DNA from: an uncultured Bacteroidales bacterium | GTDB taxonomy: Bacteria > Bacteroidota > Bacteroidia > Bacteroidales > Bacteroidaceae | Direction of reading: 5' to 3' | Assembly (NCBI GenBank): GCA_902768125.1 | Contig: CACXKA010000017.1 | Location: forward strand, 1-42,337 | Length of the DNA: 42,337 nt | Shown: piece after piece, positions 18,365 to 41,908 of the stretch | Layout of the letters: each line of letters starts with the position of its first letter | Numbering within the stretch: the first letter of the stretch is position 1 | Notes under the pieces: generated by a model | What the model was told of the DNA's origin: nothing | The model's database searches: none | The model's input: the letters and a program-made list of their open reading frames with translations, nothing else | Translations under genes and position numbers: made by a program

Positions 18365-18392
18365 TTGATAATTGATAATTGATAATTGATAA
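18365..18392. repeat. Four perfect TTGATAA heptamers in the dedA promoter
   Basis: Exact tandem copies of TTGATAA at 18365, 18372, 18379 and 18386. They cover the place where the -33 element of the dedA promoter should be, so a change in copy number would alter the sequence at that position. Confidence 0.85.
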
Positions 18393-18426
18393 TTTGAAAA
18401 ATGAGGGCAAATTTCTATCTAAAAGT

Positions 18427-18652: not shown

Positions 18653-18712
18653 AAACAAAAACAGACTGTCATCTGAAAGCTCGTTTTCAAGTGGCAGTTT
18701 GTTTTTTGTTTT
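18653..18712 (+). terminator. Long hairpin terminator after tRNA-Thr
   Basis: A near-perfect inverted repeat of about 26 bp (ACAGACTGTCATCTGAAA against TTTCAAGTGGCAGTTTGT) with a 4-6-nt loop, ending in TTTTTTGTTTTG. It terminates the SRP RNA/tRNA-Thr transcript. Confidence 0.85.
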
Positions 18713-18714
18713 GA

Positions 18715-18803
18715 TAGCCTGCCCGCGGCAGGCGCAAGGATATTTAATCCGACAAGAGTTAGCCTGCCCGCGGCAGGCGCAAGGATATCCAATCCGACAC
18801 CTC
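18715..18803. repeat. Two 45-bp tandem repeats with tRNA-Thr 3'-end copies
   Basis: Each unit starts TAGCCTGCCCGCGGCAGGCG, which forms a 7-bp hairpin (GCCTGCC-CGC-GGCAGGC), continues CAAGGATAT and ends with a copy of the tRNA-Thr 3' sequence AATCCGACAAGAG: 13/13 identical at 18746-18758 and first 9 bases identical at 18791-18803, compared with 18635-18647 in the tRNA. Starts of the two units are at 18715 and 18760. This looks like a REP-type or attachment-like element. Confidence 0.8.
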
Positions 18804-18829
18804 AAAAATAAAAATAAATCCGAATTTAT

Positions 18830-18860
18830 TTTGTTTTGTTCTCACTTAATCGTAACTTTG
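18830..18860 (+). promoter_or_regulatory. Promoter for antitoxin-like gene
   Basis: TTTG (18830-18833), 19-nt spacer, TAACTTTG (18853-18860). It lies 26 nt before the ATG at 18887 and rules out the longer frame start at 18836. Confidence 0.75.
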
Positions 18861-18886
18861 CAATTGAAAACATAAAGAATAAAGTT

Positions 18887-19129
18887 ATGACAGCGATACA
18901 AATGGGCGCATTGAACGCCGAAATACTTCGCAACCTCGGCACGATTGCAGAAGACGAAGATATGCTCACCCGCGTGGCAAAATATCTGCGCAAGTTGGTG
19001 GGGCAGAAAAAAGACCCCACGCTTTTCACCAAGGAGGAATTCTTTGCTCGTATAGACGAGGCGAGGAAGCAACCAGGCAAAAGCTTTGCCAATGTTGACG
19101 ATCTTGATAAATATATCCGCAACTTATGA
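18887..19129 (+). CDS. Antitoxin-like small protein
   Basis: The 80-aa protein starts MTAIQMGALNAEILRNLG and has the pattern (ALNAEI-R-LG-IAEDE-ML-RVAKYLRKL, then KEEFFARIDEA) of small Bacteroidetes proteins that are encoded just before RelE/ParE-type toxins; I assign it as the antitoxin of such a pair from this pattern and from the neighbour. Predicted mostly helical. The start at 18887 is set by the promoter. Its stop overlaps the start of the next frame in ATGA, the usual arrangement for translational coupling in toxin-antitoxin operons. The toxin frame is truncated, so this is probably an orphan antitoxin. Confidence 0.75.
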   Translation: MTAIQMGALNAEILRNLGTIAEDEDMLTRVAKYLRKLVGQKKDPTLFTKEEFFARIDEARKQPGKSFANVDDLDKYIRNL

Positions 19130-19239
19130 GTCGTTATATTGTAGAGATTAAGCCTCAAGCCCAAGAATACGGAAGATATAATAAGAGCCTGTGCGATTGC
19201 ATAGGCTCTTGTGTTGTAAGATGGGGATTGGGAAAATGA
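19126..19239 (+). pseudogene. Truncated RelE/ParE-type toxin remnant
   Basis: The frame starts in the ATGA overlap with the antitoxin and encodes 37 residues. The first 15 (MSRYIVEIKPQAQEY) fit the N-terminus of a RelE/ParE-type toxin; after that the sequence bears no resemblance to the family (a Cys-rich stretch translated from a hairpin) and stops. A full toxin would be about 85-100 aa, so the catalytic C-terminal part is missing. The deletion joint appears to lie near 19170, directly before the hairpin at 19183-19210. It is probably non-functional. Confidence 0.6.
19183..19210. terminator. Hairpin between toxin remnant and DUF3841 gene
   Basis: Perfect 8-bp stem AAGAGCCT / AGGCTCTT with a 12-nt loop, between two convergent transcription units. 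The tail is only moderately T-rich (GTGTTGT). Confidence 0.6.
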
Positions 19240-19251
19240 AATCCTCGAAGA

Positions 19252-19875
19252 TTATATCTTTATTTGTTTTACCACATTCCCCTTCTTTTCAAGGAACTCG
19301 ACAGAAATGACGTGTTCGGGCTTCAGCACCCAGAAGGTGGCTTGTATGCTGCGGTTGCGCCTGTGGGTACGCCCAACGGTCTTGTCGCGACGGTTGATGT
19401 CGAACACAGCTTCCCAACTCTTTTCAATTTCCTTCTGCACATTAGTCGGATACTCATCGAATTGAAGCATACGACCTGCTTCTTTGTCCAACTTGTCGGT
19501 TATCCTCCCGATTCTTTTCCAATCATCAAGTGGGCATTCGTTCAAAGGGGCAAGCCATGAACCCAAATCCGAAAGGAGCACTTCATTGTCTGGAATCTCA
19601 ATCTCCATATATGCAGACACTCCCTCCCCCATATCTTTGGGAGTTCTTGGTGGTTTTTTATCTTTAGCAGAGTTATATTGATACCATGCCCACATGGGGT
19701 ATTCTATACCCTCAATAGGTGGCCCACCTATTCGCTTCCTCATCTGCTCTGCCATCCATCGATAGGCTCGCTGAAATTCAGGCATGTTTCCTATGCGTGG
19801 TTTCGTGCAATATGCCACGCCTTCACGCTGCAATTGCTCATAGATGGCGATTCCCTGTATCGTCCAAAGTCTCAT
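19252..19875 (-). CDS. DUF3841 family protein, third gene of the RM operon
   Basis: The 207-aa protein starts MRLWTIQGIAIYEQLQREGV and continues with WMAEQMRKRIG, YPMWAWYQ and EIEIPDNEVLLSDLGSWLAPLN, the pattern I associate with DUF3841, a family without known function. It is soluble, with many Trp and charged residues. It begins 12 nt after the stop of the C5 methyltransferase, so it is the last gene of the operon nuclease-methyltransferase-DUF3841. A role linked to restriction-modification (control, repair, second nuclease) is possible but not shown by the sequence; it could also be a passenger gene. Confidence 0.72.
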   Translation of the reverse strand: MRLWTIQGIAIYEQLQREGVAYCTKPRIGNMPEFQRAYRWMAEQMRKRIGGPPIEGIEYPMWAWYQYNSAKDKKPPRTPKDMGEGVSAYMEIEIPDNEVLLSDLGSWLAPLNECPLDDWKRIGRITDKLDKEAGRMLQFDEYPTNVQKEIEKSWEAVFDINRRDKTVGRTHRRNRSIQATFWVLKPEHVISVEFLEKKGNVVKQIKI

Positions 19876-19887
19876 TTCTTGTTGTCT

Positions 19888-21642
19888 TTACATCGCCATG
19901 ATTGCTCGCAGGTTCGTGTCTGTGAATGTTCGCCAAATCATCAGCTTGATGGGTTTATAGTCCTCAAACAGCTGCGTGACGAACTTAATCTCAAAAACAA
20001 GACGGAAGTCGTTCTCGTCAGCTTCTTCTACAAACTCATGCTTGGTTCCGACACGAGCCACTTCAATCAGATATAAATCGCGGATGCCTTTTCCCTTGGT
20101 GTAGGGCATAAAATAATAGAGCTTATTTAGCTTCACCGTTGAAGGGAATTTTTTACCAGTGAAATAAGCCTTTGCATTCTGAGTTGTATAGGGCACAATA
20201 TACTTGTCAGGAACAAGACATACCAAGACGTTCTTCGAATCATCGAGTTTACTGTTGTCTATGTGCTTTTTCTTGACAAAAGGATTGTTGATAATGGCAG
20301 TTTCCCTGGGATATAGCTCATGCATGTCGAACATGTCAAGTTCGAAGAGCCTTGGAGGCAACATGTTGTGTGCCGTTTTGATTGCTTCTGCATATTGTGT
20401 TTCCTCTGGCTCCTGTGCATCAATGTCGTTGAACAGGCGTATCAATGAACGTCCGATGGCAAATGCGAGATTGACAGGCACAGCATTGCCTATCTGCTTG
20501 TATTGGTCAGCCATATTGCCCTCAAACTGCCAATTGTCCGGGAAGGTCTGTATTCGGGCATATTCCCGTACGGTCAAGGGTCGGGTCTCTATTGGATGAC
20601 AACGTTCCGTCTGCTTCTGAGCTGGAGCACAAGTCAGCGTCAAGGACGGTTCATCCATTGACAGACGACGTGCCATGCCTGTCTTGCCTCCTCCCAGATA
20701 GAAACTGCCACCCATGTATTCTTGTTGTTCCTTAATAGGTAAATCACGCCAATCTCCACCTTCTGGCACCATCGCCATCACACGGGCTTTTTTAGCAGGG
20801 TATTGCTGTCCTGCTGATTCAGGAACATCATCATCAAACAATTCACCACGATAGAAAGCATCACGTAATGTCATCACTCGCCGATAAGGTTCTGGCCACT
20901 TAAAGCGCACACCTTTCTTATAGATATCATTGCGGATGGCAATGAGTATCAGACGCTCACGCTTTTGAGGCACCTGATACATGATGGCTTTTAGCACCCT
21001 TGGTTCCACCAACGTATAGCCCAGTTCTGCAATGGCATTACGGATAATCTCCAGCGTCCTTCCATCATCATGCGACAACAGTCCTTTCACATTCTCGCCC
21101 ATGAACACCTTAGGCTGTATCTCCTTCACGGCACGTGCCATCTCAAAGAACAAGGTGCCACGAGTGTCATTCAAGCCTCCTTTCTTTCCAGCATAAGAAA
21201 ACGCTTGACACGGAAAGCCGCCAGAAAGGAAATCCACCATGCCACGAAGTGGAGTGAAATCCACTTGATGGATGTCACCTTCCAACACATTCCACTCAGG
21301 GTGATTGCGTCTCAATGTTTGGCACGCCATCGCATCCATCTCGTTCAACAGCACATGACGAAACCCTGCCAGATGCATGCCAAGCGCCAAGCCGCCAGCA
21401 CCAGCAAAGAGTTCCACCGAAGTATAGTCACGAAGAGAAGCCACATGGAACTCTTCATCCCATTTGGTGTCAAGCATCATTCTGACAGGCTCAACGTCCG
21501 TCAATTCCTCCATGTAGAAACCAGCCTTCCCTTTTTCGTTTTTGTGATATGGATATACGCCACTTTCCCCCCATCTTTGCGCTGTGGCAAGTGAGGTACC
21601 CGTAAGGTCGGCTAAATTTGTTGCAGATAAAAATGTTGGCAT
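19888..21642 (-). CDS. Type II DNA (cytosine-5-)methyltransferase, Sau96I-like
   Basis: Protects the host against the nuclease encoded just upstream by methylating cytosine in the same site. The 584-aa enzyme has the C5-methyltransferase motifs in order: I ELFAGAGGLALG (77-88), IV GGFPCQAFS with catalytic Cys145, VI GENVKGL (182-188), VIII QKRERLILIAIR (226-237), a target-recognition segment (about 240-350, including GGSFYLGGGKTGMARR), IX RPLTVREYARIQTFPD (354-369) and X GNAVPVNLA (385-393). Two additions are notable: an N-terminal helix-turn-helix-like segment (about 5-50, TNLADLTGTSLATAQRWGESG) and a C-terminal extension of about 180 residues beyond motif X. The start is 3 nt after the nuclease stop codon. 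Specificity GGNCC is inferred from the partner. Confidence 0.93.
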   Translation of the reverse strand: MPTFLSATNLADLTGTSLATAQRWGESGVYPYHKNEKGKAGFYMEELTDVEPVRMMLDTKWDEEFHVASLRDYTSVELFAGAGGLALGMHLAGFRHVLLNEMDAMACQTLRRNHPEWNVLEGDIHQVDFTPLRGMVDFLSGGFPCQAFSYAGKKGGLNDTRGTLFFEMARAVKEIQPKVFMGENVKGLLSHDDGRTLEIIRNAIAELGYTLVEPRVLKAIMYQVPQKRERLILIAIRNDIYKKGVRFKWPEPYRRVMTLRDAFYRGELFDDDVPESAGQQYPAKKARVMAMVPEGGDWRDLPIKEQQEYMGGSFYLGGGKTGMARRLSMDEPSLTLTCAPAQKQTERCHPIETRPLTVREYARIQTFPDNWQFEGNMADQYKQIGNAVPVNLAFAIGRSLIRLFNDIDAQEPEETQYAEAIKTAHNMLPPRLFELDMFDMHELYPRETAIINNPFVKKKHIDNSKLDDSKNVLVCLVPDKYIVPYTTQNAKAYFTGKKFPSTVKLNKLYYFMPYTKGKGIRDLYLIEVARVGTKHEFVEEADENDFRLVFEIKFVTQLFEDYKPIKLMIWRTFTDTNLRAIMAM

Positions 21643-21645
21643 TGT

Positions 21646-22383
21646 CTAAAAATTATCAAACCCCTCGTAAGTCTTGAAAGCGAGTAAATAAAGGCTCTTC
21701 ATGATATCTGGCGAAATATTTGCAAGTTCAAAAAAGACAGTGTTTTGATTTGTTGTACTGCCAAGTTCTTTTATGACGTCATCCAAAATTATAGGTAGAG
21801 CCTTGCAAAGTTTCACAAATGCCATAGGATCATCGAATACAATCTCATAGAACTTGTCAATCGAAACACGTCGAATGTGCTCGTTGTTAAATTGTTCCTT
21901 GTCAACAGTGGCAATCCAAGTCTTATTCTGAGAGTGAGTTGCTATTACCTCAACAAGCATGCAAGTTGCCTTGCTATCACGGATGATCTTGTTCTGCATC
22001 TTCATGTATGTTTTCTGCGCAGCTGCAGAATTCATCGTGTTATGCTTGTTCTTCATTTCAACAAAAATATGTTTTTCTTCATTGACGACATCAAAGCCTT
22101 CTCTTGGAACAGACCAACCACCACCTGCATAACGAAACAGGTTTTGATGGAAATATCCAATGTGATTATTATTGGACTTGTCCATTTGACGCATACATTC
22201 TGAAGCAACAACATCTTCCATCGTCCTTCCATAAACCTTTGCGTCGAAAGTCAGCTTAATCGGGTCGACAATATTTTTGTTAAACTCCTTCAGGTCAATA
22301 GTTACACTATATCGCTGTACAGTTTCCTTAACATGCTTGTAAATATCTTTATCCGAAATAAAGCCCAGATTATATTTTTTCAT
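21646..22383 (-). CDS. Type II restriction endonuclease, Eco47II/Sau96I family (probable GGNCC)
   Basis: Cuts unmethylated foreign DNA. The 245-aa product, starting MKKYNLGFISDKDIY, follows the pattern of the Eco47II family, whose members recognise GGNCC: IDLKEFNKNIVDPIKLTFD near residue 30-48, DKSNNNHIGYFHQNLFRY, and the catalytic region GFDVVNEEKHIFVEMKNKHNTMNS, in which Asp, Glu and Lys (D...E-x-K) fit a PD-(D/E)xK site. The frame stays open further upstream to 22461, but the ATG at 22383 is chosen because the promoter (22409-22439) lies immediately before it. This gene is visibly more A/T-rich than the methyltransferase. It is the first gene of the operon. Confidence 0.88.
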   Translation of the reverse strand: MKKYNLGFISDKDIYKHVKETVQRYSVTIDLKEFNKNIVDPIKLTFDAKVYGRTMEDVVASECMRQMDKSNNNHIGYFHQNLFRYAGGGWSVPREGFDVVNEEKHIFVEMKNKHNTMNSAAAQKTYMKMQNKIIRDSKATCMLVEVIATHSQNKTWIATVDKEQFNNEHIRRVSIDKFYEIVFDDPMAFVKLCKALPIILDDVIKELGSTTNQNTVFFELANISPDIMKSLYLLAFKTYEGFDNF

Positions 22384-22408
22384 TGTTTCATGTTTTTTAT
22401 TTTCATTG

Positions 22409-22439
22409 CAAAAGTACGAAGAATGATTGTTACCACAAA
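22409..22439 (-). promoter_or_regulatory. Promoter of the restriction-modification operon
   Basis: Minus-strand TACTTTTG (22409-22416) with TTTG (22436-22439) 19 nt upstream, 25 nt before the nuclease ATG. No separate promoter for the methyltransferase alone is evident, and no C-box-like palindrome was seen. Confidence 0.75.
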
Positions 22440-22469
22440 GCATTTTCTCATTAAATCTCAAAAAAAGTT

Positions 22470-22499
22470 TTTGAGTGTGGGAAAAAGTACGTAACTTTG
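22470..22499 (+). promoter_or_regulatory. Promoter of the 419-aa gene
   Basis: TTTG (22470-22473), 18-nt spacer, TAACTTTG (22492-22499), 26 nt before the ATG at 22526. It is divergent from, and about 30 bp away from, the RM promoter. Confidence 0.7.
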
Positions 22500-22525
22500 C
22501 GAAAACCTTATATGATAGAATAATT

Positions 22526-23785
22526 ATGGCAATTCAAAGAAACGAGGTGGCAGAGCCTCAATGGGACAAGTGGGATTATGCCGCTAGAATTAAGGATGAC
22601 TTGTTCTCCGAAGAACGTTGGAAACAAACACCAGAATGGGATGTCATTTTAAAGCAAGTTGAGATAACTCGACAGGCAAGTCAGATGATAAACTTCTGCC
22701 TTTACCCCTCGAAATTGTTCTTTACCGCTATCGATCTGCTGGAAGCTAATCTGCTTGTAATAGACGACTTGTTTTATTGCCTGACGGGCATACGATTGAT
22801 TGATGCCAGATTGGGGTCGGAGGAAGTGAAGAACACGCTGGGTTTCTGGAACATGGATTGCTATAAAGTATTAGAACAGATACATAAAGGATTGATTCAG
22901 ACAAAAGCTCCATTGGTGGAAGCCCTCAACTGGGAACCTATCCGGGACGTAACCCGTCAAGTTGAGAAAATGTACCCGGGATTGACGCACATGATAAGCC
23001 CCCTCTCTTACGATACGCTCCTCGATGAGAAAAGACGTGCATGTCTCTATGCGAACGCACATTACGACCCGGGTCAGGTAGACAAGGAAGCTCTGGCTAC
23101 TCAAATAGTACATATTCTAAGTTTGGTGGAAAGCTATGCCTTTTTCTTCGGTTGCCTTTATGTGGAAACCATAGGATTTCCCAGATTACTGATATTGTTC
23201 CGCCAAAGCGAGAAAGCGCAGAATGAGTATATAGAACCTTGGCGAAAAGACTTCAGGGGTACTCGCGACAACCTGATTTCCAAAATGGAAAAAGACCCGA
23301 AATTAGGACCATGGGTGAACCGATACGATCATCTTTCAAAAGGCATGAGTGTTTGCAGACAACTGTTTTATAACGGAATGACAACCCGACCTATCAACGA
23401 AGAAGAGTGTTACAACACCGACAATTGGATTTCGATTCTTACCGTCGCAGCCGTCCTTCAGGAATACGACGAGCTTCATGCCCAGACTGTTAAGAAACCT
23501 GTAAAGAAAACCAAAGCCTCCAGCCCTTTTACTGAGTTCATCATTGATACGCCCAAATGCAAAGCTGTCTTAAAGCGGCTGCACGAAATCATCGACGGCA
23601 AGCAGCCCAAGACATGCGCTCTTACAATCCTTGCAGCAATACAAAAAGGCATCCTTATACAACCCACATACAAAGCCCTTTCTATAGAATTTCCTGAGAT
23701 TGGCGAAAGGAAGAATTATCAATATTATCTCCAAAGGAAGGACAACTACCCAGATGACATAAATTCCATCGCAAAAGGCTTATAA
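22526..23785 (+). CDS. Unrecognised 419-aa protein
   Basis: I do not recognise this protein. The start (MAIQRNEVAEP) is set by the promoter at 22470-22499; the longer frame from 22475 begins inside the promoter. It is soluble and mainly helical, with no signal peptide and no clear membrane helix. Visible parts are a helical N-terminal two-thirds (about 1-325), a Lys-rich hinge (VKKPVKKTKASS, about 336-347) and a C-terminal segment of about 70 residues (from FTEFIIDTP) ending ALSIEFPEIGERKNYQYYLQ, which resembles short C-terminal modules I associate with uncharacterised Bacteroidetes proteins. It lies between the RM operon and the repeat-led gene and has its own promoter and terminator, so it is probably a single-gene cargo of the accessory region. 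No catalytic motif is evident. Confidence 0.65.
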   Translation: MAIQRNEVAEPQWDKWDYAARIKDDLFSEERWKQTPEWDVILKQVEITRQASQMINFCLYPSKLFFTAIDLLEANLLVIDDLFYCLTGIRLIDARLGSEEVKNTLGFWNMDCYKVLEQIHKGLIQTKAPLVEALNWEPIRDVTRQVEKMYPGLTHMISPLSYDTLLDEKRRACLYANAHYDPGQVDKEALATQIVHILSLVESYAFFFGCLYVETIGFPRLLILFRQSEKAQNEYIEPWRKDFRGTRDNLISKMEKDPKLGPWVNRYDHLSKGMSVCRQLFYNGMTTRPINEEECYNTDNWISILTVAAVLQEYDELHAQTVKKPVKKTKASSPFTEFIIDTPKCKAVLKRLHEIIDGKQPKTCALTILAAIQKGILIQPTYKALSIEFPEIGERKNYQYYLQRKDNYPDDINSIAKGL

Positions 23786-23810
23786 GAATCCATTTTCTTG
23801 TCAGTTTCTT

Positions 23811-23855
23811 CCCCTCATTATCTACCCACTTTCCCCTGTGGGAGATAATGGGGGG
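23811..23855 (+). terminator. Terminator of the 419-aa gene
   Basis: Stem CCCC-CATTATCT-CCCAC / GTGGG-GATAATG-GGGG of about 18 bp with an 8-nt loop, about 25 nt past the stop codon, followed by AATGTTTATTTG. Confidence 0.75.
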
Positions 23856-23863
23856 AATGTTTA

Positions 23864-23895
23864 TTTGTGAGCATTTCGGAAACGCTGTACTTTTG
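23864..23895 (+). promoter_or_regulatory. Promoter upstream of the 11-bp repeat array
   Basis: TTTG (23864-23867), 20-nt spacer, TACTTTTG (23888-23895) followed by CACCGG. The next gene starts at 24144, so the transcript should have a leader of about 240 nt that contains the whole repeat array. Confidence 0.72.
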
Positions 23896-23958
23896 CACCG
23901 GAGATTCCGAATTGGATGACACTTGGTCTGGCTCGATGATTCTCAAGGAACCCCATAC

Positions 23959-24101
23959 GTTCCAGTCGAGTTCCGATTGAGTTCCGATTGGGTTCCAGTT
24001 GAATTCCGATTGGGTTCCGGTTGAGTTCCGATTGAGTTCCGATTGAGTTCCGATTGAGTTCCGATTGAGTTCCGATTGAGTTCCGATTGAGTTCCGATTC
24101 C
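23959..24101 (+). repeat. Thirteen 11-bp tandem repeats, consensus GTTCCGATTGA
   Basis: Units start at 23959 and then every 11 bp to 24091. The first units carry single changes (GTTCCAGTCGA, GTTCCGATTGG, GTTCCAGTTGA, ATTCCGATTGG, GTTCCGGTTGA), then six consecutive perfect copies (24025-24090) and a final unit diverging in its last two bases. The array lies between a promoter and the start of the 398-aa gene and ends 42 nt before its ATG. All three plus-strand frames meet a TGA every 33 nt, so it is not coding in that direction. Confidence 0.95.
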
Positions 24102-24143
24102 AAGGGTAGGATCTATGTTTAACTCTTTTAATTCATTAACATT

Positions 24144-25340
24144 ATGAAACAGAAAAATCCAAAAACTACAGCACAGACGTTACAACGTGTGCTTATGAAG
24201 GTCGTAACTATGTTCTACGCCATGTTTAAGGGAATCTGCAATCACTCTTTCGAAGGATTGGCCATTGGTTTCGAGAACATGACCAAGTTCATAGGAGTAA
24301 ACATCAAGTACCTTCGCGAACGCGCAGCGACGCTGCAGAACTCGGGACAGAGCCTCAGCCAGTTCTATCAGTTCATTCCGCTTCAGAGTGACAAGTGGAC
24401 GCCGTATGCTGCCATCATTGCTCAAGGCCATCTGCCAGAAATCTCGGTGGGCATCGATGCCGAAGGTGGCCACAAGGCGTATGTCAATGCACCCGGTCGC
24501 ACCTATGCTGACTTTGTCGCAGCATGGGGTCTTCAGCGTGGCGACCAGGTGACCTTCGTCACAGTCCAGAAACGTGAGGCTAAGTATGAGGTGAACTATT
24601 CGCGCCTTATCCTTAATCCTCGCAATGCTGACGGCAGCGGTGCTCCAATGACCACCGAGATTGTGAACAGTGAAGGTGAGTTCCCTTGCTCCAACTGGAA
24701 GAACCGCCTGAACTTCTCCACTTTCACCTTCGACACCGACCACTTCAACTTTGTGCTTGGTCGTGGCGGCATCGTGGTGGCTGCAGGCATCATTGTCAGT
24801 CGCAAGGACAGAAGCGGCAGCTGGTTCCGCAGCAACTGTCAGCTCGTGCTCAATGAGGCAGGCTTTGGAAGCGACCTTTGCAGCCTGGCTGAGGCTGTAG
24901 AGAAGAGCTATGTGGCGGCAGACATTGACTTGGAGTCGGAGTACTACCTGAACAATGCGGGTGCAAGCGGTACTGGTGCTACTGGCGACATCACCCCAAG
25001 CGGTGGCAGCGGCGGCGTGACTCCTGGAGATCCTGCCTACAACACCACAGCCACCATCAACGGTGTCAGCCAGAGCATTACAGGCGGCAGCGTCACTGCC
25101 ACGGCACCTGTCACCAGCGTGACCGTCAGCGGCACCAACCTTGGTGACGTGACCTTCACGGCGAAGATTGATGGCACGGGCGATGCCATCAACCCCACCA
25201 GCCACGACGCCAACGGTGCTTCGTTCACAGGCCTGAACGTCGAGGCAAACCACAACCTCGTGGTTTATCGTAACGGCAGCATTTGGTTCACCATCTCGTC
25301 TCATTCTGGAGGCTCTGGTGGCTTCGACACGGGAGATTAA
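24144..25340 (+). CDS. 398-aa Bacteroidetes-type protein with C-terminal beta domain
   Basis: I cannot name this family with certainty; the N-terminal pattern (MFYAMFKGICNHSFEGLAIG, then a helical segment to residue 65) and the following domain (VPLQ-like FIPLQSDKWTPYAAII, GRTYADFVAAWGLQRGDQVTFVTV, GGIVVAAGIIVSRKDRSGSWFRSNCQL) resemble uncharacterised proteins common in Bacteroidales. Layout: helical N-terminus (1-70), a beta-rich middle domain (about 80-265), a Gly/Ser/Thr linker (about 270-295), then an Ig-like beta domain (about 298-385, ending VVYRNGSIWFTIS) and a Gly/Ser tail. No signal peptide is obvious. The ATG follows a TTAACATT leader and a 240-nt untranslated region with the 11-bp repeat array. 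Codon use is core-like and fairly GC-rich. It stands alone, ending in hairpins. Function unknown. Confidence 0.7.
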   Translation: MKQKNPKTTAQTLQRVLMKVVTMFYAMFKGICNHSFEGLAIGFENMTKFIGVNIKYLRERAATLQNSGQSLSQFYQFIPLQSDKWTPYAAIIAQGHLPEISVGIDAEGGHKAYVNAPGRTYADFVAAWGLQRGDQVTFVTVQKREAKYEVNYSRLILNPRNADGSGAPMTTEIVNSEGEFPCSNWKNRLNFSTFTFDTDHFNFVLGRGGIVVAAGIIVSRKDRSGSWFRSNCQLVLNEAGFGSDLCSLAEAVEKSYVAADIDLESEYYLNNAGASGTGATGDITPSGGSGGVTPGDPAYNTTATINGVSQSITGGSVTATAPVTSVTVSGTNLGDVTFTAKIDGTGDAINPTSHDANGASFTGLNVEANHNLVVYRNGSIWFTISSHSGGSGGFDTGD

Positions 25341-25367
25341 GGTTCGCGCCTTCGGGCGCAACCTTAA
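25337..25367 (+). terminator. Hairpin overlapping the stop codon of the 398-aa gene
   Basis: Inverted repeat TTAAGGTT-GCGCC-TTC-GGGCGC-AACCTTAA; the left arm begins inside the TAA stop. No T-run follows, so it may be a 3'-end stabiliser; a second hairpin with a T-run follows at 25404. Confidence 0.6.
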
Positions 25368-25370
25368 GAG

Positions 25371-25406
25371 AATGAAAAAATGAAAAAATGAGAAAATGAA
25401 AAATGG
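25371..25406. repeat. Period-8 A-rich array (AAATGAAA)
   Basis: About four units of the kind AAATGAAA/AAATGAGA between two hairpins after the 398-aa gene. Confidence 0.55.
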
Positions 25407-25436
25407 GGAAGGCTCCGATGGGGTCTTTCCTTTTTT
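25404..25436 (+). terminator. Intrinsic terminator of the 398-aa gene
   Basis: Stem GGAAGGCTCC / GGGGTCTTTCC with a short loop, directly followed by TTTTTT (25431-25436). Confidence 0.8.
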
Positions 25437-25469
25437 GTGGATTTATTCGGTGGTTATCAATAAAAATAG

Positions 25470-25477
25470 TACCTTTG
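25470..25477 (+). promoter_or_regulatory. -7 element of the sigma-factor operon
   Basis: TACCTTTG followed by CAAAGG; the -33 region is A/T-rich with no clear TTTG. It lies about 82 nt upstream of the chosen sigma-factor start. Confidence 0.6.
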
Positions 25478-25559
25478 CAAAGGATTGGAAAAAATTTTTT
25501 TTGATTTCCATTTGACTTTTCATTTTCTCAATCGTATAATAGGCAAAGAGAACATCAAA

Positions 25560-29852: not shown

Positions 29853-29856
29853 TTTA

Positions 29857-29918
29857 TTTACAATTTGACGATTTACGATTTACAATTTAATTTACGCTAA
29901 CCTCTAACCGCTAAACCA
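29857..29918. repeat. Period-7 spacer repeat between ruvX and def
   Basis: Units such as GATTTAC, GATTTAC, GCTAACC, TCTAACC, GCTAAAC. The array covers the ruvX stop codon and the 58-nt spacer up to def. Confidence 0.6.
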
Positions 29919-41782: not shown

Positions 41783-41908
41783 TCAGCGGTTAGCGGTTAG
41801 CGACACCCCGCATGGCTAAACCTCAAATCTCAAACCTCAAATCTCAAACCGTTACAGATTTGAACCTTGAACTCTTGAACTCTTGAACCTCAAAACTCAA
41901 ATCTCTTA
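41783..41908. repeat. Block of period-7 and period-8 arrays
   Basis: Three adjoining arrays: GCGGTTA units (about 41786-41802), alternating AACCTCA/AATCTCA heptamers (about 41818-41850) and TTGAACTC octamers (about 41860-41905). The block lies between the terminator and the smalltalk gene. It is the longest repeat block of this class in the window. Confidence 0.7.

Follow-up and report, generated by a model that had tools for sequence, protein, structure and literature searches.

We describe a tandem array of 11-nt units in the predicted leader of a gene encoding a 398-aa protein, P398, within 42,337 nt of DNA from an uncultured Bacteroidales bacterium (contig CACXKA010000017.1), referred to here as the window. 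Across the relatives of this gene, the 11-nt beat and the dinucleotide TC are mostly kept while the sequence of the unit changes, and the array commonly lies in the loop of a covarying stem. Promoter, leader, and open reading frame (ORF) occur together as a block in different surroundings. Our best guess, held tentatively, is that the leader acts as an attenuator tuned by its repeats, with Rho as the simplest candidate reader.

A preliminary description of this DNA had placed thirteen 11-bp units between a promoter and the 398-aa ORF, with six identical units on the gene-proximal side, and both observations were confirmed (Table 1). Units 7-12 (24025-24090) all read GTTCCGATTGA, units 1-6 carry 0-3 changes each, with unit 2 unchanged, and unit 13 ends in CC, where the closing stem starts. 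The array is located 63 nt from the promoter, which we take to be of the Bacteroidetes -33/-7 form, and 42 nt from the ATG at 24144. Its Tandem Repeats Finder score of 222 (12 copies, 90% matches) is the highest of 22 rows for the window, the runner-up scoring 75. A double unit searched with at most three mismatches gave 18 matches in the window's own genome and 0 for the reversed pattern.

A protein search of genome contigs gave 46 loci, of which a fragment, L054, was dropped; the 45 remaining relatives and the window make up the 46 leaders counted here. The loci are related to each other, and counts across them are not independent. The relatives are 65-85% identical to P398, and their records are titled Prevotella, Prevotellaceae, Bacteroidaceae, or Bacteroidales, many of the titles pointing to ruminant samples. 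They comprise a long form of ~400 aa (33 loci plus the window) and a short form of ~306 aa (12 loci). Whole-genome searches added L123 and L125, which are new and carry arrays, and the more distant L102, which does not; L121, L122, L124, and L126 were repeats of earlier loci, and L103-L106 stay out of the counts. The gene is sporadic: within the genus, a search at E 1e-10 found it in 5 of 45 genomes (its own included, 3 of the 5 strong), and one at E 1e-30 found it in 7 of 301 genomes of the family.

As the preliminary description had proposed, array and gene co-occur in most loci: the strongest self-match falls at lag 11 or 22 in 40 of 46 leaders, and in 5 of the 6 remaining ones the array sits upstream of the partner gene, the next gene upstream (families t1 to t3, see below). 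A promoter box, TAnnTT(T/C/G)G, is present at most 360 nt upstream in 39 of 46 leaders, including that of the window. The importance given earlier to this particular 11-mer is not supported, since loci carry their own units, for example ACTCATGTTGA, TCTCATAAAGA, AGTCTATCAGA, AGTCCGAAAGA, and TCTCCAATCGA. Among 22 long-form arrays, units differ at 4.9 of 11 positions between arrays and at 2.9 within them.

The TC is retained through this divergence. With each dinucleotide free to choose its register, TC occupies a single register in at least 70% of the units in 28 of 37 arrays, compared with 18 of 37 for the next best dinucleotide and 13 of 37 for GA on the sense strand. Inside the arrays, in the range of 7-15 nt, TC words are separated by 11 nt in 296 cases and never by 10 or 12; the other distances are 7 (22 cases), 8 (5), 9 (74), 13 (76), 14 (4), and 15 (17), those of 9 and 13 being consistent with units like ATCTC, in which one TC word overlaps another. 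Chains of TC at a step of 11, with single misses allowed, reach at least six members in 32 of 46 leaders and 13 in the window, while chains at steps of 10 and 12 never exceed four. C exceeds G in 27 of 38 arrays, a composition set that omits the low-scoring L028, L031, L032, L036, L037, L038, L039, and L046. L034, which contains a run of N, is kept in this set and was left out of the fold, TC, spacing, and unit-difference counts. At the chosen threshold, arrays of period 11 or 22 in 286 kb of the relatives' DNA stand almost only in P398 leaders or upstream of the partner, the exceptions, both of period 22, lying near 5800 in L014 and near 4300 in L043. A sample of the window's own genome (G000; 454,838 bases, window included) contained only three period-11 arrays, all previously known.

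Many long-form leaders start with a form of AGAATCACGAATTGG and have TCCAAGGGTAGGAT at the array end. The strands at the leader start and at the array end pair to form helix P1, an internal loop, and helix P2, and in 23 of 34 long-form leaders this places the array inside the apical loop; a stem-loop is still seen by eye at this place in four array-less leaders (L028, L036, L037, and L038). Registers were set by eye from conserved anchors, which favors pairing somewhat. The stem table omits 7 of the 34 leaders that have no motif or no 5' part (L015, L022, L027, L031, L032, L035, and L043), and the 22-row test further omits L018, L023, L024, and L028, whose registers are shifted. Across these 22 distinct rows, 89.9% of cells are paired, a level reached by 1 of 500 shuffles, with 11 two-sided cells against 3.7 in shuffles (0 of 500) and a covariation of 0.225 against 0.140 (0 of 500). 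Sliding the stem by one column reduces pairing to 47-61%. A separate count of P2 in 13 distinct rows gave 12 two-sided cells against 3.45 (0 of 5000 shuffles), and 6 against 2.0 (36 of 5000) after removal of the two rows with the freest register. That a covarying stem encloses the array points to a role at the RNA level. Rfam gave no match at gathering score in 23700-25500 and none at the leaders of 14 of the 46 loci, a tRNA being the only match for these.

The short-form leaders (L041, L042, and L044-L053) are built differently, with an array that starts right at the promoter and complementary 11-nt units after it. Their fold z is negative in 9 of 12 leaders, the lowest being -6.6, and positive in 3. 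The loop-proximal arms look compensatory by eye, for example CTCTA/TAGAG in L047 and CTCCA/TGGAG in L049. A similar arrangement is seen at L036 (1775-2086), where a long 11-nt array with 21 TC in one chain precedes complementary units and folds as a very long hairpin (z -5.3), and at L031 (1675-1890), where the hairpin is less clear (z -1.3).

Similar copies of the locus differ by whole 11-nt units, one in L018/L023 and two each in L021/L026 and L025/L040, bearing out the slippage suggested earlier. Between the window and its nearest relative, L009, the units differ throughout (GTTCCGATTGA versus GTTCCAATCGA), as homogenization would leave them; the lengths of these two leaders differ by 49 nt, which is no clean multiple of 11.

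The suggestion that array and gene form a mobile unit is likewise supported. L018 and L023 share a 95.5% identical block that runs from near the -7 box to the P398 stop codon, with different partners upstream (t3 versus t1) and unrelated DNA downstream. The short-form loci L044 and L048 lie in different surroundings but share a 97.2% identical block that starts 216 nt ahead of the ORF and ends 83 nt past it, and L021 and L026 share array, ORF, and downstream genes with different partners (t2 versus t1). The pair L035/L043 (98.2%) breaks at the terminator and the stop codon and identity resumes downstream (86% over 401 nt); because the downstream DNA is shared, we treat this pair as one site and not as a move. 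Within a stretch that differs from L035, L043 carries a period-22 array just 3' of P398 (4270-4434).

The window locus itself lies on a 6.85-kb island that is absent from a close relative, G023, in which the tRNA-Thr side and a gene for an extracytoplasmic function (ECF) sigma factor are 66 nt apart, compared with 6,850 nt in the window. On the island are a DUF3841 gene, genes for a C5 methylase and an Eco47II-type endonuclease, and the genes of the partner and P398. The difference reflects either one insertion in the window or a loss in G023, which has its own P398 elsewhere (L009, L100). Phage or plasmid cargo was considered and rejected: one weak phage match was obtained and none among plasmids or viral contigs, two partners had no phage match, and no viral contig contained the exact double unit.

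Units of the window's family also occur outside the leader, at two further sites in its own genome (C2 and C32) and at four in G023 (C7, C44, C60, and C72), C72 and C32 being one site in the two genomes. The preliminary description had stated that arrays of the same 11-mer at random places away from such genes would refute it; sites away from the gene do exist, which in part goes against it, but they do not look random, as 2 of the 6 keep the leader 3' flank and 5 of the 6 follow, by eye and in the sense direction, a gene end and a terminator-like hairpin. At C44 the preceding gene end is a fragment, and the genes before C2 and C32 carry LRR_5, that of C2 also MBG_2. At C60 (L139, near 2784-2871), the array and the leader 3' flank are followed by a start resembling the first 8 P398 codons, with GTG for ATG, which then breaks off into unrelated sequence. 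C60 and C7, which keeps the 3' flank, look like decayed leader copies, and the off-leader arrays appear to reflect, at least in part, the birth and decay of cassettes. With at most one mismatch, the double unit was found in 1 of 201 family genomes, its own.

The Rho hexamer engages one pyrimidine-C pair per primary site, the sites being 9-13 nt apart, and it is the only host factor we know of with a geometry of one TC per 11 nt. We propose that this gene cassette, which is exchanged horizontally, carries a leader RNA acting in cis, with the array as its functional element. A short stem formed where transcription is predicted to begin (P1, internal loop, and P2) would close a large loop holding mostly 6-13 TC-N9 units. 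These units, gained and lost in whole 11-nt steps, would turn over by slippage or unequal exchange, drifting and becoming homogenized, while selection would hold the 11-nt beat and the TC. A multi-subunit reader would touch one TC per 11 nt, one per subunit. Rho would load on the array and, as long as the leader is neither covered nor folded, terminate transcription ahead of the ORF, and the number of units may thereby set how silent a newly arrived gene is. A broader version, in which each 11-nt rung is a docking position for a ring-shaped RNA reader (Rho or another) on a self-silencing cassette of rumen Prevotella whose expression is set by repeat number and evolves as fast as a minisatellite, strikes us as speculative. 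PMC9160355 gives the descriptor [(YC)N9->13] for Rho utilization (rut) sites, and the window array contains repeated YC pairs at such spacing. Two further papers describe rut sites as 78 nt with a C every 11-13 nt and C > G (PMC6407284), and state that Rho, termed essential in gram-negatives, acts in mRNA leaders too (PMC13269538). We do not class the array as a rut site; it may only work like one.

Several observations weigh against this proposal. The window array contains 24 C and 37 G, at odds with the descriptor of ~78 nt with C > G, and C does not exceed G in 11 of the 38 arrays. The complementary strand of the window array also has TC at a step of 11, in two chains of 7, so the window alone cannot tell which strand is read. 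No array is present in 6 of 34 long-form leaders (L028, L031, L032, L036, L037, and L038), nor in the 312 nt upstream of the distant homolog L102 (genome G004). Long-form arrays are not clearly more or less structured than their column permutations, with a mean z of -0.55 and a stability below that of the median permutation in 10 of 26 cases, and thus give no hint that an open strand is selected for. Stable folds are seen in most of 8 short-form arrays and in those of L022, L027, L035, and L043. Within the 22-row stem test, neither the pairs with two-sided change (3 versus 2.2; 186 of 500) nor the further pair types (9 versus 8.0; 173 of 500) rise above shuffles, and the loop-side P2 pair is not formed in 9 of 22 rows. 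A second kind of 11-nt run, three to four units with a GGATT/TGATT core, follows the partner stop codon upstream of the P398 promoter in 7 of 11 t2-type loci (L012, L021, L028, L036, L038, L039, and L123; partial in L030 and L034, none in L010 and the window). These runs carry TC on the other strand, and Rho would not bind them on sense RNA. Finally, the array upstream of the partner in L037 is inverted.

The period, the TC register, the spacing, the chains, and the stem would equally suit another RNA reader, with every TC of the leader bound by a host RNA-binding protein (for example, of the RRM type), by P398, or by the partner, and with translational or autogenous control as the outcome. 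Also in its favor, leader and ORF moved together in L018/L023 (95.5%). However, P398 is kept at 65-85% identity while units differ at about 5 of 11 positions, which leaves little that could be read beyond the TC, and no RNA-binding domain was found in P398, 5 relatives, and 9 partners tested. Partners are swapped under the same array in L018/L023 (t3 versus t1) and L021/L026 (t2 versus t1), and the partner was rejected as the cognate reader on this ground. Overall we consider a reader of this kind doubtful. A DNA element, with helically phased sites for a coating or wrapping protein beside promoters, acting as an operator or in a centromere-like manner as in parC of plasmid R1, seems unlikely to us. 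Direct repeats do adjoin promoters, 7 of 11 t2-type loci (the window not among them) have 11-nt runs on the upstream side of the P398 promoter as well, with TC on the other strand, five loci carry an array upstream of the partner, and PMC9426499 states that R1 ParR requires at least two 11-bp repeats. The covarying stem and the occurrence of arrays in leaders of both protein forms nevertheless fit RNA, and no match to ParM, ParR, RHH, or HTH above cut-off was found in P398 or the partners tested. DNA has a helical turn of 10.5 bp, from which an exact 11-bp period drifts; over 13 units, this strains the earlier suggestion that the repeats present one face of the DNA.

An ancestral 11-mer array could also persist as a neutral minisatellite in a tolerant leader, turning over by slippage with its period kept by descent. 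This would account for the whole-unit gain and loss, for the array-less leaders that precede open ORFs (L028, L031, L032, L036, L037, L038, and L102), and for the leftover arrays that persist at gene ends. Neutral turnover explains the change of units, whereas the constancy of 11 and TC is harder to reconcile with it: roughly 5 of 11 positions have changed, yet no TC-word spacing of 10 or 12 nt occurs (a comparison uncorrected for kinship among loci), TC is kept above other dinucleotides, arrays stand in the leaders of both protein forms, and arrays missing from the leader turn up upstream of the partner in 5 of 6 cases. We judge this explanation to be quite improbable. Two genomes have off-leader arrays at gene ends, two of which are scars, and the shared blocks have sharp edges; both could point to an array that serves mainly in recombination or mobility, as a docking site or scar of the cassette, and regulates nothing. 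Yet the few block edges that were mapped fall outside the arrays, at the promoter or terminator and at or beyond the stop codon, and the units differ too much between loci for homologous exchange. We consider such a role very unlikely. Three further interpretations of the array were rejected: a coding sequence (11 is no multiple of 3, and many units contain stop codons), a CRISPR-like array (it has no spacers), and a structured array (for most long-form arrays, folding is close to that of the permuted versions).

Table 1. Positions of the array, its leader, and the surrounding features in the window.
Feature	Position	Strand	Description
Island, 6.85 kb	18654..25503		Absent from close relative G023
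Partner gene, family t2, 419 aa	22526..23785	+	Just upstream of the P398 promoter
Promoter	23864..23895	+	TTTG at 23864-23867, 20-nt gap, TACTTTTG at 23888-23895
Helix P1, 5' strand, AGATTCC	23902..23908	+	Close to the predicted transcript start
Helix P2, 5' strand, TTGGA	23912..23916	+	Covariation with 24099-24103 seen among relatives
Array, 13 units of 11 nt, consensus GTTCCGATTGA	23959..24101	+	One in-register TC per unit
Helix P2, 3' strand, TCCAA	24099..24103	+	Overlaps the end of unit 13
Conserved 3' flank, GGGTAGGATCT	24104..24114	+	Internal-loop strand and 3' strand of helix P1
P398, 398-aa protein	24144..25340	+	ORF
Terminator-like hairpin 3' of P398	25405..25431	+	From hairpin search; count equals shuffles

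The search for terminator-like sites found 2 in the stretch searched, compared with 2.1 in shuffles. P398 itself has no Pfam or PHROG match at E 1 and no NCBIfam match above the curated cut-off, and PADLOC models gave no match at E 0.01 for P398, the window partner, or one t1 and one t3 partner. Its predicted model, with a mean predicted local distance difference test (pLDDT) score of 73, starts with two helices at the N terminus, continues into a beta-rich middle, and ends in a C-terminal domain that resembles a beta-sandwich and is modeled with confidence; we term this domain immunoglobulin (Ig)-like from its Foldseek matches. The best fold match is a viral model, A0A8S5RM31 (E 4.9e-9, TMq 0.41); a solved-fold identity was rejected, the Foldseek matches being mostly of Ig type with low TM. 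A distant relative, L079 (MT836516.1, 7393-8544), is located on a 10-kb phage-like contig that also encodes a single-strand binding protein, a weak match to a replication initiator, and an M15 endolysin. This relative matches DUF6266 (PF19781; E 0.014) and Big_2 (E 0.022), both weakly and below the Pfam cut-offs, and loosely links P398 to these two families.

The preliminary description saw no operon partners for the gene, which is misleading: by BLASTP clustering, the next upstream same-strand gene belongs to one of three families in 32 of the 33 long-form loci with upstream sequence (18 t1, 10 t2 with that of the window, and 4 t3). L040 has no partner, and the sequence of L015 does not extend upstream. 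Between partner and P398 there are promoters and, judged by eye, often terminators as well, so that the two form a module and not an operon. No partner matched above cut-off among those tested against Pfam (9 of 32) and NCBIfam (6 of 32). The t2 partner of the window is predicted, with low confidence, to be all-helical (mean pLDDT 69), with no match at E 0.001 in a fold search. Where the leader has no array, as in L028, L031, L036, L037, and L038, an 11-nt array with TC is found directly ahead of the partner; L032 has none. In L021, the last unit of the second-kind run continues into a terminator-like hairpin. Upstream of the partner, the cassettes of L019, L024, L025, L031, and L037 are preceded by the apparent end of a gene for a surface protein or a small exported protein, with dockerin-like ends (by eye) in L019 and L024; most off-leader arrays likewise adjoin gene ends.

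To our knowledge, rut sites are poorly described in Bacteroidota. The P398 leader resembles rut sites of mRNA leaders in that pyrimidine-C pairs recur every 11 nt along ~60-150 nt of untranslated sequence; it differs in being made of tandem repeats that vary in number, in placing them in the loop of a stem that is conserved, and, in the window, in having more G than C. It shares with parC of the R1 ParMRC system direct 11-bp repeats beside a promoter, with a sequence that varies between systems, but the array lies in a predicted leader with a covarying RNA stem, and no ParM or ParR was found in P398 or the partners tested (Pfam 9 of 32, NCBIfam 6 of 32). As in bacterial minisatellites and variable-number tandem repeats, copy number changes by whole units and units are homogenized; here, in contrast, the period and one dinucleotide are kept across diverged arrays at one place of one family. 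Only the distant MT836516 relative gives the weak matches to DUF6266 and Big_2, and P398 gives neither at E 1. TRAP is a ring protein that reads evenly spaced short leader motifs, GAG/UAG, at a shorter spacing. TRAP-type control is like the P398 leader in its evenly spaced short motifs and unlike it in motif and spacing.

No fitting described family was found in Rfam, Pfam, NCBIfam, PHROGs, or PADLOC among the sequences scanned. Full-text searches gave no paper on DUF6266 and only a review for 11-bp tandem repeats in leaders of Prevotella; for repeats with Rho utilization and for Bacteroidetes leader RNA, none of the matches listed dealt with such a leader. We regard it as a variation on cis-acting leaders with evenly spaced sites, in which an expandable repeat on a mobile gene supplies the sites. 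Leader regulation is usually studied through fixed folds. The roughly forty natural leaders described here, with changing sequence and a mostly fixed 11-nt beat and TC, form a series for finding readers of spaced motifs in Bacteroidota and for asking whether repeat number tunes the expression of a mobile gene. P398, in turn, marks an unnamed, sporadic gene family whose partners can be exchanged and which has a distant relative in phage-like DNA.

A further recurrent period in these genomes is 7 nt. The window contains 7-nt arrays at 887-929, 18365-18394, 29856-29889, and 41818-41850, with the units GTTTAGA, TTGATAA, ATTTACA, and AAACCTC, and arrays of 7-nt units are also present in L037, L049, L052, and L053.

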